This document shows, in pieces, positions 3,434 to 10,583 of a stretch of 64,000 bases of DNA. A program made the position numbers and the translations under genes. The stretch lies in contig CANJMI010000001.1 of the NCBI GenBank assembly GCA_947475525.1, forward strand, positions 124,001 through 188,000, written 5' to 3'. Below the pieces are notes generated by a model. The model was not told where the DNA came from. It did not search any database and was given only the letters and a program-made list of their open reading frames with translations. The stretch comes from Polyangiaceae bacterium. GTDB taxonomy: Bacteria; Myxococcota_A; Polyangia; Polyangiales; Polyangiaceae. Numbering within the stretch: position 1 is the stretch's first letter; each line of letters begins with the position of its first letter.

Positions 3434-4038
3434 CCTTCGCGCTCGTGGTGGCCGCGGACGAGGGCGGCGGCATTGGAAAAAACGGCGAGCTTCCGTGGCG
3501 CCTACCGGGTGACCTCGCTTTTTTTCGAAGGCAGACAACGGCCACGCTCGACCAAAAAAAGCGCAACGCCGTCATCATGGGACGACGCACCTGGGAGTCG
3601 GTACCGGATCGTTTTCGGCCGCTGCCCTCGCGGCTGAACGTCGTGGTCACTCACGACCCAAACTACGACACCGCGGGCAAAGCTATCGTCGCCACCAGCC
3701 TCGAGGACGCGCTTTCACGCGCTCGCGCCGCCCCCGACATCGAGACGCTTTTCATCATCGGCGGAGGCGTGCTCTACCGCGACGCACTCGCCCACCCTGC
3801 CTGCCAAACGGTGTACCTCACGCGCATCGAAGGCCACCGCGACTGCGACGCCTTCTTCCCTCCGCTCGAGGCCTCGTTCGTGCTCGCCGAGGCCTCCGCG
3901 CGCCACGAAGAGAACGGCGTTGGGTACGTGTTTCAGCGCTGGGAGCGTGAACGATTCACTCCCGCGAGCGCGAGCGGCTCGACTACGGCGGAGGCGGCAA
4001 GATCGCAATCCACGCGCCGAGGGCCGCTGTCCCCGTGA
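3430..4038 (+). CDS. folA: Dihydrofolate reductase
   Basis: Reduces dihydrofolate to tetrahydrofolate with NADPH. The ATG overlaps the thyA stop codon (ATGA), which indicates translational coupling. Motifs: [16 protein letters not shown] with the acidic catalytic residue at D28, [12 protein letters not shown] (NADPH contact) and [13 protein letters not shown]. At 202 residues it is about 30-40 longer than usual. The extra tail after FQRWERERF is low-complexity Ser/Thr/Arg, and its last 56 bases overlap the convergent cytochrome gene on the other strand. The tail is probably unstructured. Confidence 0.95.
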
Positions 4039-5200
4039 CGTCGATGACCTCGGTCCCCGTCGGTGGCATCTGTTTCAAATTCGGCGCCATGTCGGTGCCG
4101 CGCTCGGTCATTCGAACGTACGAGCAGCTGTTCGCGGTGCTGCCGCCGGCAAGCCGATAGTTGCAGCCAAACCCGACAAAAAGCTGGGTCGGCTGATTTA
4201 CCATGGTCTTGTACGCGCCCGTGCTGACCACGTCCGCGTCGGTCGTCTTCACGCGCGCGTTGAAGCTCGGAAAGAGAAGGCCCTCGCTCGTATCGTTGTG
4301 GCACGAGCCACAGTTCGCATGCAGATAGCCGAGCGCTTCACGTTCGATCGCCGTTCCGGGCACGACGAAGTTTCCGGCGGGCGGAGAGGAGAGGAGGCCC
4401 TCGGCTATCAGGCTAGCGAGCGTGAGGCCCGGTCCGTCGTGGCTGAGTTGCAAGGCGTCGAGACCGAGGAACCGCGAGGGGAGGCCGCCCTTGGCGGGAT
4501 ACGGACCGTGGCAACGTCTGCAGCCGAGCTCGTCGGGGATGTCATGATCGGTGCCGAGCACGTTCTTCGCTCCACCAACGACCAGCGTCGCGTCCGTTTG
4601 CTCCTCGTCCCACTGGTAGGTCGCGTACAAAATGTCCTTCGTGGCGGAGCCGTAGCGCACCATCATCCGAGTCTCGAGGCGCTTGCCGCCAAGACTGAAC
4701 TCTTTCCACGCGCGCGTTCCAACGGGAAACTGCCACCCGTCCATGTCGGTCGTGTCGATGGTGCCGCACTCCGGCAAGTAGACGTGCCGCTGCTTTTTCG
4801 CGTCGTCCGCCCAGAGCGAGAATTGGGGTGCATACGCGCGTGCGTAAGCGGCAACTTTCTTCGTCGTGATGTCCGCGTACAGGCCCGTCTCGGAGAGCTT
4901 CGCGGGAGGCTCGGTCACCGCAGGGAGGAGATTTTGGCAGCCGCCTCCTGCGCCGCCCGCGCCCGTCGCAACCGACGAGGACGCGTGTTCACCGCCTTGC
5001 CCACCGGTGCCACCGCTACCCCCGGCGCTGTGCGTGGTGAGCGCGCCGCCGTGCCCAGCGGTTCCGCCCGCCGCCGAGGACGAGGACAAGGCCGACGAAG
5101 CCGACGAAGCCGCTGTCGCCGTGTCGGCCCCACCGTCACCGCAGGCCGCGAAGCCCACCGCGACAAGCGCCGAGAACACGAGTGGGAGCGTCGACCGCAT
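3983..5200 (-). CDS. Diheme c-type cytochrome lipoprotein (SO2930-like)
   Basis: 405-residue lipoprotein with a lipobox ending GFAAC (Cys20), then a roughly 65-residue Ser/Gly/Ala/Thr linker, then a globular domain with two heme-c sites: CRRCH at 227-231 and CGSCH at 297-301. The segment before the first heme (LSETGLY, ending in the fPvGT, ETRMM and YQWDEEQTDA stretches) resembles the SO2930 family of diheme cytochromes. QMPPTG near the C-terminus could supply a Met ligand. The MRSTLPL start was chosen because AGGA lies 10 bases before it and a signal peptide follows directly. Heme attachment would need the Ccm machinery, part of which is encoded at 20.6 kb. The redox partner is unknown. Confidence 0.85.
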   Translation of the reverse strand: MRSTLPLVFSALVAVGFAACGDGGADTATAASSASSALSSSSAAGGTAGHGGALTTHSAGGSGGTGGQGGEHASSSVATGAGGAGGGCQNLLPAVTEPPAKLSETGLYADITTKKVAAYARAYAPQFSLWADDAKKQRHVYLPECGTIDTTDMDGWQFPVGTRAWKEFSLGGKRLETRMMVRYGSATKDILYATYQWDEEQTDATLVVGGAKNVLGTDHDIPDELGCRRCHGPYPAKGGLPSRFLGLDALQLSHDGPGLTLASLIAEGLLSSPPAGNFVVPGTAIEREALGYLHANCGSCHNDTSEGLLFPSFNARVKTTDADVVSTGAYKTMVNQPTQLFVGFGCNYRLAGGSTANSCSYVRMTERGTDMAPNLKQMPPTGTEVIDVTGTAALGAWIAILPPPP

Positions 5201-5277
5201 TAACCCGTTCCTAGCAGATCCACCGCGCGAAGCCCGTCCGATCGGTGCCGCCATGCGAAGCGTTGATTCCACAAAGC

Positions 5278-6174
5278 TCAGTAGCGTAGGAGAAAGTCAA
5301 CCGTCGGCCAGACTTGGTTCGACCGCGCGTACGAGACGGACGCAAACCCCTCGGCATCGGTTGTCACGACGCGCCGATGGGTGTCCGCATTCCACGCCAT
5401 CGCGCCGAGCGTGACGCGGGTGTGCGCGCTCGTCCGAACATCCACGCCCGCGTAGCCACTGACGAAGAGCGGCGAGAGCGGATCGTCTTTCGGGCGGCCG
5501 ATGAAATACACGCCGAGCTCCCCGCGAAGGCGCAGCCAATCCAAGATGGCGTGATCGTACCCCACACGAAATTCGGTGCGCCACTGCCCGAGGAACGGCG
5601 CGAACTGAACCGTAACGGGCGCCCACGCGTCGAGCGACTTGGCGGTCTCACCCGTCAGCGCGAAGCCCTTGGTAAACTCAGCACGCACGGTCAACGTTCC
5701 GCGCTCGTGCCCGTCACGAACGAACGCGCCTCTCGACATCCAGAGCGCCACCTTGGGGACCAGCAAAATTCCTGGGCGATCGCACCACTTCGCGAGCGTG
5801 GGCTCGTGCACCGAGACCTTGCACGACGGCACGATATCGCCCGACAACCCGAAGGGCTGCGCGAGGTGCCAGGCGCCCGTCGGAACGCCGAGACCGACAA
5901 CGCCGCTCACGCGCACCGCCCCAGGATGAGCGGGGGAGCGCAGCCAAAACCGCGCATCGACGTGCGGAGCCACGAGCGCCGTCAGCGGATGGAGCTCGAG
6001 CTCGACATGCCGCAACCCCACGCGCAGCGGATTGAAGACGCCAACCTGAAACTGCCCGGCAGGCAGAAGGTCCGCCGTCTCACGGGGTGGCAAGGGCTGC
6101 GCCGACGCCGAGGAGCCAACACCGACCGAGACCACCACCGCGATCGCACGGGCCATCCTCGCGCATGCGCTCAC
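5278..6174 (-). CDS. Predicted outer-membrane beta-barrel protein
   Basis: 298 residues. A signal peptide (hydrophobic AIAVVVSVGVG, cut after SSASA) precedes a protein of alternating polar/apolar strands with frequent Gly and aromatic residues. It ends in FLLRY, and an aromatic last residue is typical of barrels inserted by BamA. No named family is recognised. The GTG start used here overlaps the stop of the upstream phosphodiesterase-like gene (GTGA) and has AGG 7 bases before it. An in-frame ATG at 6156 is the alternative and gives a shorter signal peptide. The position as third gene after two surface lipoproteins suggests a channel or anchor for that system; this is inference. Confidence 0.75.
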   Translation of the reverse strand: MSACARMARAIAVVVSVGVGSSASAQPLPPRETADLLPAGQFQVGVFNPLRVGLRHVELELHPLTALVAPHVDARFWLRSPAHPGAVRVSGVVGLGVPTGAWHLAQPFGLSGDIVPSCKVSVHEPTLAKWCDRPGILLVPKVALWMSRGAFVRDGHERGTLTVRAEFTKGFALTGETAKSLDAWAPVTVQFAPFLGQWRTEFRVGYDHAILDWLRLRGELGVYFIGRPKDDPLSPLFVSGYAGVDVRTSAHTRVTLGAMAWNADTHRRVVTTDAEGFASVSYARSNQVWPTVDFLLRY

Positions 6175-7364
6175 GGTTTGACCTGCCAGATACCGACGAC
6201 CGGCGCGTGATCGGACAGTCGCCGAACGTCCGAAAGCACCACGGGCCCGAGGCCATCTTTCCCGCCGACGTTTTGTCCCAAGTGCTGAACGGCATCGGTC
6301 GAGCCGGCTCGCCACGTCGAAGGCTTGGTCACGAAGAGGTAGTCGAGCGTGCGATTCCAGTCACCAGGCTTGCCCTCCTCGTTGCGATCGTCGGGACCGA
6401 GCACGGTGTGCGTGAAGTAACGCGACTGCTCAGCTTCGGTCGTGCCGTACCGCGCGAGGGCGATGGCAGGCTCGAACTCGTCGAAGAATGGCTGCATCGC
6501 CTGCGGCGTGTACGGTGGCTGCGCAAACTCATCGCTGCACACCGGATCGGTGCGCTCGTCGAGGAATTGCTCGAGGCGCAGGGCCGTAGGCGGCAGCTCG
6601 TTGAAATCCCCTCCCACGATTGAGGGCCACGTCTCGCCGGCGACCACGTCGCGGATCTGTTGGAGCTGCCGCTGCTTGGTGCCGTCGTTGTCGTACGCCT
6701 CGGTGTGGACCACGAACGCGACCGCGCGCTTGCCCGGGTGGAGCTCGAGTTCGGCACGGCCAATCGCACGGTGAATGTAGAACAAGCGCGTGAGGGCGCC
6801 CTGATCGGTGCGATCCTCTTGGCGGATGCGCTCGGCGCGTTTTATCGGGTATTTGCTGAAGATCGCGTTCCCGAGGGCAATGCGGCCGACGCCTTCGGAG
6901 GCCACGTACTGGGAGTTCCAGGTCTCGTAGTACGCAGCGTAATTGAGGTTCGTGTGCTCGAGGATCCCGCGGACCATGTCGACGTACGCCGAGCGCCGCG
7001 AGTTGACCTCAATCTCCTCGGTCATCAGGACGTCGGGATCGAGCTCGTTTATCAGCGCGTAGATGCCCTTTAGATTCGCGTCGACTTCGGCCTGCGACAT
7101 CGCGACCCGATCGCCCCAGCAATCGAACCAGAAGGGGATGCGCCCGGCGCCATACTTGATGTTCCACGCAACGACGCGCAGTTGCGCGGGACTACCCGGA
7201 TCCTTGGGCTCGACGAGCGAAGAGCGTCGATAGATGGGGACGTCCTCGCGTGGGAGGTCGTAGTCGACCGCAAGCGGCTCGCAGCCAAGAGAGGCGAGCG
7301 AAGCGAAGCCCCAAGCGAAGCCCCAAGCGAAGCCCCAGAACGAAGGACAAGCGCGCATCGCCAT
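6171..7364 (-). CDS. Endonuclease/exonuclease/phosphatase-family lipoprotein
   Basis: 397-residue lipoprotein of the EEP (DNase I / inositol-phosphatase-like) superfamily, so a metal-dependent phosphoesterase. Signal peptide with lipobox SLGC (Cys28). Catalytic motifs are all present: WNIK (67-70), EEIE (116-119), VGGDFNELPP, LDYLFV and SDH (384-386). Substrate classes in the superfamily include DNA, RNA, phosphoinositides and sphingomyelin, and the sequence does not decide. The signal peptide contains three GFAW-type repeats encoded by an exact 12-bp tandem repeat. The ATG lies just inside the end of the CD39-like gene; a GTG at 7370 would give a GTGA overlap. It probably works with its neighbours on the cell surface. 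Confidence 0.85.
   Translation of the reverse strand: MAMRACPSFWGFAWGFAWGFASLASLGCEPLAVDYDLPREDVPIYRRSSLVEPKDPGSPAQLRVVAWNIKYGAGRIPFWFDCWGDRVAMSQAEVDANLKGIYALINELDPDVLMTEEIEVNSRRSAYVDMVRGILEHTNLNYAAYYETWNSQYVASEGVGRIALGNAIFSKYPIKRAERIRQEDRTDQGALTRLFYIHRAIGRAELELHPGKRAVAFVVHTEAYDNDGTKQRQLQQIRDVVAGETWPSIVGGDFNELPPTALRLEQFLDERTDPVCSDEFAQPPYTPQAMQPFFDEFEPAIALARYGTTEAEQSRYFTHTVLGPDDRNEEGKPGDWNRTLDYLFVTKPSTWRAGSTDAVQHLGQNVGGKDGLGPVVLSDVRRLSDHAPVVGIWQVKP
7301..7336 (-). repeat. Three exact 12-bp tandem repeats inside a signal-peptide coding region
   Basis: AAGCGAAGCCCC occurs three times head to tail, with a further partial match on the left. Read on the minus strand it encodes the repeated W-G-F-A units of the lipoprotein signal peptide. 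Because the unit is a multiple of three, copy-number change would lengthen or shorten the hydrophobic core without shifting frame. Confidence 0.9.
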
Positions 7365-7366
7365 CG

Positions 7367-8668
7367 TCACTCGCAGTCGGAGAAGAACTTTGCCGTGACC
7401 GACGCGCCTCGTGCCCACTGGTCGTCCCCGCCGGCATGAATCGACGGCATGTCGGCGACGCCTTTGAAGGCCTCGAGGTACGCGGCATGGAAGGACAGCG
7501 AATAACAAAGATTGTTGGTCATGCTCTTCGCGTCGAAGGAGTTCGGCGCGAACGCGAGGACGTCCGCGTCGGAGAGGGGGCACGCCTTCGCTGCGAGCGC
7601 CTTCAGATTCTCGAGCGTAAACGCAGGATGGAACGCGTCGTCGGTCTTCGGCGTCCACGGCGGCGCGTTCGGAAATTCACGGAAAATGCCGCTCCAAGGA
7701 GCACCGAGCCCGTAGAGCTCGCGCGGCGATATCTGCGCGACGACCGCCTCGAGACCGTTCGTGGTGAAGACCTTCTCGGCGAGGTACGCCACGCACTGCG
7801 CGCCGTCTTGCTTTGAACGATCCATAGGCGAGAAGCAGACCGAGAACGCGGGGTCGCCGCTCAGCTGGGAAAACTCGTAGTTCTGACCGCGGTAGATCGA
7901 GCCTCCGACGAGCAGGTCGTAGGCGTCGCCGGGGGCTCCTCCGGCAAGCTGCAGGGTCGCGCCACCGGTTTCGATGATCGCGAACGGCTTGCCGGGTGCC
8001 ACTCCCTCGTTGACGCCGACCCAAGCGAGGCGAGCTTCGTCTTCACCGGGGACCGCCTTCGCGACCACCTCGGTGAACCCCTTCCCTTTCAAGAACGTAT
8101 CGATCGTGGTCCAGACGGCATCCCACGCGGGGTTCATCGCCGGCGCCGCGGTAGCCGGATCGCGGTAGCCGCCGGTTCCGAGCGCGGCCGCGAGCTTGAC
8201 CTTCTGCAGCTCACCCAGATCTTTGCCCATAACGACAAACGCGTGATCGATGGCCACCCACGCCTCTTCGAGTTTCGGCGTCACGAGCGCGGGCACATCC
8301 TTCGGATCCTTGCCGTCGACGAGCGCCGCGAGGCCGCCATTACTCTTGGCGCAGATGGGCGCGGCAGCACCGACGGAGCACTTCTTCGTGGAGACGTCGC
8401 GCGCCACGTCGAAGACGCAGAAGCGCGTGCCGGACGAGCCCGAGTCGATGACGAGGTGGCCCGTCGTCATCGCCATGCCCGAGCCCGTCGAGCTCGACGA
8501 GGAAGACGTCGACGAGGAAGACGACGCGGAAGATGACGCGGAAGACGTTGCGGCAGCGGTCTCGTCCGACGACGAGCCGCAGGCGGCGAACGCTGCCGGC
8601 AAAAAAGACGCGAGCGCGACAGGGGAGCGGAGAACGCGAGAGGCGAAGGGAAGAACGTGTCTCGTCAT
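7367..8668 (-). CDS. GDA1/CD39-family (apyrase) nucleoside triphosphate diphosphohydrolase lipoprotein
   Basis: 433 residues. It probably hydrolyses extracellular NTPs/NDPs to NMP. Lipobox FAAC at Cys30, then a roughly 35-residue Ser/Thr linker, then an ASKHA-fold domain with apyrase conserved regions: DSGSSGTR (75-82, ACR1), ALGTGGYR (162-169, ACR2), [12 protein letters not shown] (209-220, ACR3 with the candidate catalytic Glu) and ETGGATLQ (233-240, ACR4). A Ppx/GppA phosphatase is less likely because ACR1 reads DSGSSGTR and not D-x-G-T-N. The first gene of a three-gene surface operon; the next ORF begins at its stop. The start was set by the signal peptide; the ribosome-binding site is weak. 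CD39 enzymes are common in eukaryotes and sparse in bacteria. Confidence 0.82.
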
Positions 8669-8768
8669 CGGAAGGCAGGAAAACCCGAAGCAAAATCCTG
8701 AGTCAATTGTAAACCTTACCGCCGCCCCCTCGCCGCCACGCGCGAGCGGTGGTACCGCGGACGGCACC

Positions 8769-9494: not shown

Positions 9495-10472
9495 TCAGAA
9501 GTGGATGGATGTGCCGATGTTGCCGTACACGGCGAACTTCCAGTTCGTAACGTAGTCGACGCGCTCAAGAAGGTTGCCCGTCACGGTATCCTTCTCGCGA
9601 TCGTCGCGCTTGCTGCTGACGCCCGGGTTGAACGCGCCGCGGAACGTGAGCGGAATGCGGATGTCCACGTTCGGGATCGGCAGCTTGAACTCGGCGCCGA
9701 GGCCGAACATCACGTTGACCGAGTTCTGCGTGATGATGCCGTACTTCGTCCCAAGCGAAGCACCGGGGGTTGTCGCGACGACTTCCGCTTGGCATTCGGG
9801 CTTCGTGGCGCGATCGGCCGAATCGACTTTGCAGGCAGGCAGCGGAACGACGAACTCCGGACCGACGAAGAAGACCGGTTGCGCGAGCACGCCCGGCACC
9901 GAGGCCTTCAGCAGCAGCGGCATATGGAGAGCGTTCTGCTTCAGGTTGATGTCGAAGTTGGACTGAGCTCCGCTCGCCAGATCCGTGATCGTGATCTCGG
10001 CTGAGCCCTTGTCCGTCATGTGAAGCACACCGAACTCGAAGCCGATGTAGTCGATGAACCGCACGTCGATGAAGCCGCCGCCCCCGATGCTCGAGCCGGC
10101 AAAGCCGGGATACTTCGGGTCGGAATTCACCCCGTTGATGCTCTGGTCGTCCGGCTTGTCGAAAAAATTCGCGCCGCCCATGAATTGGGCGCCGATGCCG
10201 ACCGACACGATGCGGTTGCCTTTCTCTTCGGGCGCCGCGTCACCGGCCTCGGCCGTCAGCTCGCCGGCGTTCTCCGACGTCTTCTCGGAGGTCTTCTCCG
10301 CGGTCGTGTCGAGCGTGTTCTCGGACGCATGATTCTCGTCCTTTTTCGCGGGCGCGGAGGGCGCCGTTTCGGCAGGCTTGGCCTTCACGACGCCGTCACC
10401 GTCGCCGGCAAACGCGGCTCCAGACGAAAGACCAAGAACCGCGACAACTCCCAAAACTGGACGAAGCTTCAT
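9495..10472 (-). CDS. Porin-like outer-membrane beta-barrel protein
   Basis: 325 residues. A signal peptide (MKLRPVLGVVAVLGLSSGAAFA) precedes a 65-residue Ala/Glu/Lys/Thr-rich segment with repeats such as EKTSEKTSE, then a C-terminal barrel of roughly 230 residues rich in Gly and aromatics that ends in SIHF (terminal Phe, a Bam signal). GGAGFxGG-like turns (GGANFFDK, GGGGFIDV) and periodic strand pairs fit an 8-12-stranded barrel. The ATG used has GGAGG 5 bases upstream; an in-frame TTG four codons earlier is less likely. It is monocistronic. Substrate unknown. Confidence 0.78.
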   Translation of the reverse strand: MKLRPVLGVVAVLGLSSGAAFAGDGDGVVKAKPAETAPSAPAKKDENHASENTLDTTAEKTSEKTSENAGELTAEAGDAAPEEKGNRIVSVGIGAQFMGGANFFDKPDDQSINGVNSDPKYPGFAGSSIGGGGFIDVRFIDYIGFEFGVLHMTDKGSAEITITDLASGAQSNFDINLKQNALHMPLLLKASVPGVLAQPVFFVGPEFVVPLPACKVDSADRATKPECQAEVVATTPGASLGTKYGIITQNSVNVMFGLGAEFKLPIPNVDIRIPLTFRGAFNPGVSSKRDDREKDTVTGNLLERVDYVTNWKFAVYGNIGTSIHF

Positions 10473-10583
10473 CGATACCTCCAAGAGGCGACGATGCTAA
10501 GCCGCCCTGCCGGGCAACTCAACAAAGGCGGAAGGCGGAAGGCCCATTCGGGCACAAAACGACGCCTCGGGTTGGGGCCAGAT

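Follow-up and report, generated by a model that had tools for sequence, protein, structure and literature searches.

A gene pair for an EEP-fold lipoprotein and a predicted outer-membrane barrel across Myxococcota, joined in one species by an apyrase-like gene

Results

The window analysed here, a stretch of 64,000 nucleotides from a Polyangiaceae bacterium, holds three genes in tandem, encoding an apyrase-like protein (APY), a lipoprotein (EEP) and a predicted barrel (BAR). The features of the locus are the following:

7367..8668, minus strand: APY, 433 aa, exported apyrase-like protein, putative lipoprotein (AFAAC) with a Ser-rich linker
6171..7370, minus strand: EEP, endonuclease/exonuclease/phosphatase-fold lipoprotein, candidate starts GTG 7370, ATG 7364 and ATG 7358
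5278..6174, minus strand: BAR, predicted outer-membrane beta-barrel with a signal peptide, start GTG 6174 or ATG 6156
7367..7370, minus strand: GTGA overlap of the APY stop and a possible EEP start
6171..6174, minus strand: GTGA overlap of the EEP stop and the BAR start
7289..8717, no strand: segment without counterpart in the sister species G115, comprising APY and the region upstream of it as well as the EEP 5' end and signal peptide

The GC content by codon position is coding-like for all three genes and the same as in the neighbouring ones, and the reading frames of the original prediction were confirmed with their coordinates and strand. The GTGA overlaps were likewise found at both junctions, GTG 7370 lying within the APY stop and GTG 6174 within the EEP stop, and the in-frame alternative ATGs follow a few codons past these GTGs. 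Close behind BAR, and likewise on the minus strand, positions 3983-5272 encode a putative lipoprotein with two CxxCH motifs that matches the SO2930 diheme cytochrome model weakly (E 6e-32, below cut-off). At positions 9495-10484, also on the minus strand, lies the gene of a protein that has a signal peptide, finds no match in Pfam and is possibly another barrel.

In regard to EEP, the window protein matches PF03372 over the whole domain (E 7e-14, 52.5 bits, with a curated cut-off of 24.5), and the same family is matched by all 14 aligned EEP members. The catalytic N, H, D, N, D, S, D and H are found in all 34 sequences and the Glu in 33 of them. The full set of residues is present in the window protein, as had been predicted, and by its sequence EEP very probably acts as a hydrolase. 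Each of the 31 barrel-linked EEPs retains the Cys at its lipidation site, with mostly Glu or Asp following at position +2. In M. xanthus, Lys is found at +2 in 8 of 12 inner-membrane lipoproteins, and lipoproteins of the extracellular matrix tend to carry Ala at +7 (PMC3222651), the +2 rule being given there as a tendency and deriving from another family. The window EEP has neither Lys at +2 nor Ala at +7, which agrees with an outer-membrane site, though only by exclusion. EEP is described here as predicted to be exported and lipid-anchored, with the outer membrane as the most likely site of the anchor. The surface location that had been proposed for the operon was not confirmed, as position -3 of the window EEP lipobox is non-canonical and the orientation is not readable from sequence.

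For BAR, no match was obtained in Pfam or PDB, and the AlphaFold model built from one sequence reached a pLDDT of 31.9. The predicted barrel is supported by a strong beta-strand amphipathic pattern, since strands of alternating-residue amphipathicity follow the signal peptide, and the mean 180-degree moment of the family-averaged sequence was 0.776 vs 0.535 +/- 0.051 in shuffles (z ~4.7), with EEP, included as a control in the same beta-amphipathicity test, staying at chance. BAR is likely, judging from this pattern, an outer-membrane beta-barrel. In many genomes of the phylum, the N-terminal portion of the BAR profile picks up another, unlinked group of proteins as well (E ~1e-8 to 1e-12), which suggests a wider barrel family.

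A barrel gene was found directly downstream of EEP, on the same strand, in 31 of the 34 EEP loci examined, belonging to 14 families across the phylum; this is not a blind rate, because the 20 later loci were chosen for diversity from the EEP table when the barrel table had already been seen. In phylum-wide searches, a BAR profile match lies immediately downstream in at least 39 of the 53 genomes with a strong EEP match. The overlap of the second and third genes noted in the original prediction proved to be of a type kept across the phylum: the reading frames overlap in all 31 EEP-BAR loci, in 28 of them by a start codon within the NTGA of the EEP stop and in the others by -1 or -16. From this we infer that the EEP-BAR pair is old and inherited together, adjacency and overlap being evidence of co-inheritance and not of physical partnership. 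A fixed third partner was looked for in the 34 neighbourhoods and none was found; since the genes on either side change from one lineage to the next (kinase-AAA in g17, ExbB/ExbD-PhoH in part of f29), no such partner is proposed.

The three loci where EEP stands without a barrel (L146, L147 and L152) share one type of neighbourhood, ExbB/ExbD-DivIC-GGDEF-PhoH, which points to few loss events. In two of them (genomes G242 and G122) the lipobox Cys is lost and a plain hydrophobic segment is retained; the losses behind this correlation between lipobox and barrel are very few and come from a single clade. A 5'-nucleotidase gene was also observed within ~5 kb of EEP in four f29 loci (L143:2178-4016, L144, L146 and L152), the protein of L143 matching PF02872 and Metallophos.

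The trio as a conserved unit, which the original prediction proposed to look for in related genomes, was not borne out, being present in one genome of the five in the genus and in no other genome sampled, an outcome that had been named in advance as refuting the proposal. Within the genus, the full APY gene occurs in the window's genome alone. Among 116 genomes searched at the order level, full-length APY was found only there and in G070 (47% identity); G115 yielded a fragment and G007 a marginal match. When 379 genomes of the phylum were searched with a profile, G336 and G387, with two copies each, and G408 were added. A scan of genome contigs returned the G070 contig only. No EEP or BAR gene was found within the several kilobases read around APY in G070, G336, G387 and G408, the reading in G070 being limited by a contig of only 6.6 kb; searches of the G070 genome found neither EEP nor BAR, though APY is present. 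Among plasmids, tblastn gave no match to APY and a single EEP, of 30%, in Pseudomonas, without an adjoining barrel. A search of the open-access literature found no description of the EEP-BAR pair or of the trio.

The sister species G115 has the same gene order as the window, consisting of the 10591 region, the 9495 gene, yebC (96% identical in protein) and EEP, but without APY. Homology at the DNA level runs from 10211 to 8718 at 83%, breaks, and restarts at 7288, inside the EEP signal peptide, at 89%; between these breakpoints the window has 1429 bp and G115 has 197 bp of unrelated sequence. It follows that ~1.4 kb with APY and the new EEP start is lineage-specific; the overlap of APY and EEP is recent. 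Although the G115 assembly is fragmented and the remainder of its EEP lies on another contig, yebC and the EEP start are on one contig, so the absence of APY is not an artefact of a contig break. EEP of G115 has an ordinary start and signal peptide (MPSRTFLLRALALFVGLGTVGCEPLAV), while the signal peptide of the window EEP is made of WGFA repeats and starts directly behind the APY stop. In this signal peptide (positions 7289-7358), a short tandem repeat (WGFAWGFAWGFA) is found exactly at the junction with the APY segment. In G091, a 9495-type gene (L038:5177-5995) lies directly before EEP and is contiguous with EEP and BAR, with yebC elsewhere. A 143-bp piece of APY, 95% identical to window positions 7948-8090, was observed in G115 beside an unrelated gene (contig C371, L006:2573-2715) and could be either a relic or an error of the assembly.

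In Pfam, the window APY stays under the cut-off for both GDA1_CD39 (PF01150; E 0.08, 12-12.8 bits, cut-off 24.9) and Ppx-GppA (PF02541; E 0.11, 12.4-12.8 bits, cut-off 27), and a search of its own genome with the GDA1/CD39 family (PF01150) found nothing. All seven APY members match Ppx-GppA (best E 2e-7), the best E for GDA1_CD39 being 0.0025, and hhalign to Ppx gave 97% over 183 columns; among solved structures, the APY profile scores best with Legionella NTPDase1 (E 4.5e-7), followed by GppA (5e-5). The seven members have in common eight invariant cysteines, GSSGT in ACR1, GTGG(Y/F)R in ACR2 and the Glu of ACR3, with catalytic Glu E211 (ACR3) and Thr T165 (ACR2) invariant throughout. The claim of intact apyrase motifs holds for ACR1 (DSG, within DSGSSGTR), ACR2 (GTGGYR) and the ACR3 Glu of the window protein, and is overstated as a whole because the metal-binding Asp of the ACR4 DXG is a Glu in six of the seven members (ETG in the window), in addition to the scores under both Pfam cut-offs. 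In NTPDase structures, side chains of both DXG Asp contact the metal cofactor shell (PMC12489842), and with the ACR4 Asp replaced the activity of APY is not to be presumed. A bacterial precedent is known in the two ecto-NTPDases of Legionella (PMC7542358). APY is best called, by its motifs and profile matches, a divergent exported, disulfide-rich branch of the combined GDA1/CD39-Ppx/GppA superfamily, which may hydrolyse NTP/NDP or another phosphoanhydride. The AlphaFold model from two sequences had a pLDDT of 34. Weak APY matches in families f33, f35 and f60 were rejected, being short matches in the region of ACR3-4; of these, L056 and L065 were read through and are Ppx/GppA-like.

Discussion

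The real unit at this locus is the EEP-BAR pair, and the trio is a one-off in the window species. The best reading, which we favour with moderate confidence, is that EEP works as a lipoprotein hydrolase of the outer membrane and has BAR as its dedicated barrel. EEP would be exported and lipid-anchored, most likely at the outer membrane, where it would hydrolyse a phosphoester by the usual metal-dependent mechanism of its superfamily, for which the catalytic residues are present. BAR would be produced in a fixed ratio to EEP through the overlapping stop and start codons, and as an outer-membrane barrel it could pass product or substrate through the membrane beside EEP, or hold or display it. 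In the window species, as seen against the sister locus, a ~1.4-kb piece with the apyrase-like gene and a new EEP signal peptide lies upstream of the pair, and a phosphoanhydride hydrolase that is exported and probably cleaves NTP/NDP would thereby come under the same transcription as EEP-BAR. The simplest reading of this arrangement, by parsimony against loss elsewhere, is that the APY segment was inserted in the window lineage, and the APY-EEP GTGA overlap would be a by-product of the insertion.

Several other explanations can be weighed against these. The original prediction saw in the locus a dedicated three-gene operon of apyrase, nuclease or phosphatase, and channel for extracellular breakdown of nucleic acid or nucleotides and uptake of the products. 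In its favour, each of the three genes seems to encode an exported product, their frames overlap in a tandem arrangement, the best solved relative of APY is an NTPDase, and the 5'-nucleotidase genes near EEP in f29 give a weak hint towards nucleotides. The narrow distribution of the trio argues against it, with APY missing from the sister locus, never found beside EEP elsewhere, and present in G070 where EEP and BAR are absent, so that such an operon seems unlikely to us. What stands is that genes two and three are a phylum-wide pair of lipoprotein enzyme and barrel, for which nucleic acid or nucleotide breakdown is one possible function, nucleotide scavenging being a plausible candidate. It has also to be considered that EEP might cut a phospholipid or another membrane or cell-wall phosphodiester, in the manner of sphingomyelinases, with BAR as the barrel of that envelope process. 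EEP is predicted to be lipid-anchored and its nearest solved relatives by profile are bacterial sphingomyelinases C, yet this match is partial and non-significant (E 0.013), much the same scores are reached by exonuclease III-like and unassigned EEP structures (E 0.02-0.03), and we regard the proposal as improbable.

The remaining alternatives concern APY. Rather than an apyrase, it could be an exported protein on the Ppx/GppA side, with polyphosphate or some other phosphoanhydride as substrate. We see this as a real possibility but not the leading one; it bears on the APY gene alone, and the confidences given to the alternatives are not mutually exclusive. The Ppx/GppA-like ACR3 region, the Pfam matches of all seven members and the hhalign result speak for it, while the ranking of NTPDase1 above GppA among solved structures, the CD39-like ACR1, the eight cysteines, which fit an extracytoplasmic NTPDase-like fold, and the lack of any match to NTPDases by the true Ppx of the same genome speak against it. 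As to its history, APY could have been ancestral at the locus and lost from G115, G091 and others, consistent with the fragment retained elsewhere in G115 and with a composition like that of the host. That relic, however, is not at the EEP locus and comes from a fragmented assembly, and the contrast between the ordinary G115 signal peptide and the repeat-built one after the APY stop further makes this course of events hard to credit. Going beyond the favoured reading of a lipoprotein hydrolase with its own barrel, one may picture an undescribed outer-membrane module, spread through Myxococcota, where EEP is docked on BAR and feeds it products, and to which an exported third branch of CD39/Ppx was recruited in one species, although we put this forward as speculation and consider it doubtful.

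Overlapping EEP-BAR frames across at least 14 families point to an envelope function common in these predatory and scavenging bacteria of soil and water. An exported branch between CD39 and Ppx/GppA could be useful for understanding how ecto-nucleotidases arose in bacteria, and the sister locus offers a clean case of a new gene set before an old operon, with the signal peptide replaced.

Compared with known systems, APY shares with Legionella pneumophila NTPDase1 (Lpg1905) and GDA1/CD39 the order of ACR1-4, most residues, export and richness in cysteine, but differs in its Pfam score, in the ACR4 Glu of most members, in an ACR5 that is not recognised and in a Ppx-like ACR3. With Ppx/GppA it has in common the ACR2/ACR3/ACR4 core and the RDP/EARL motifs, whereas export, the cysteines, the CD39-like ACR1 and the score of the window protein below the cut-off set it apart. 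EEP has the full catalytic set and whole-domain match of its superfamily (PF03372), and is distinguished by the family-specific motifs FWFDxxGDRV and HTxAYDxDGTK, by being a lipoprotein and by a frame overlapping the barrel gene. Outer-membrane modules in which a lipoprotein and a barrel work together include SusD/SusC, SLP/Slam and LptE/LptD. The EEP-BAR pair shares with them the pairing of lipoprotein and barrel, with no sequence relation found, and differs in that its lipoprotein is a phosphoesterase and its barrel is small (~270 aa).
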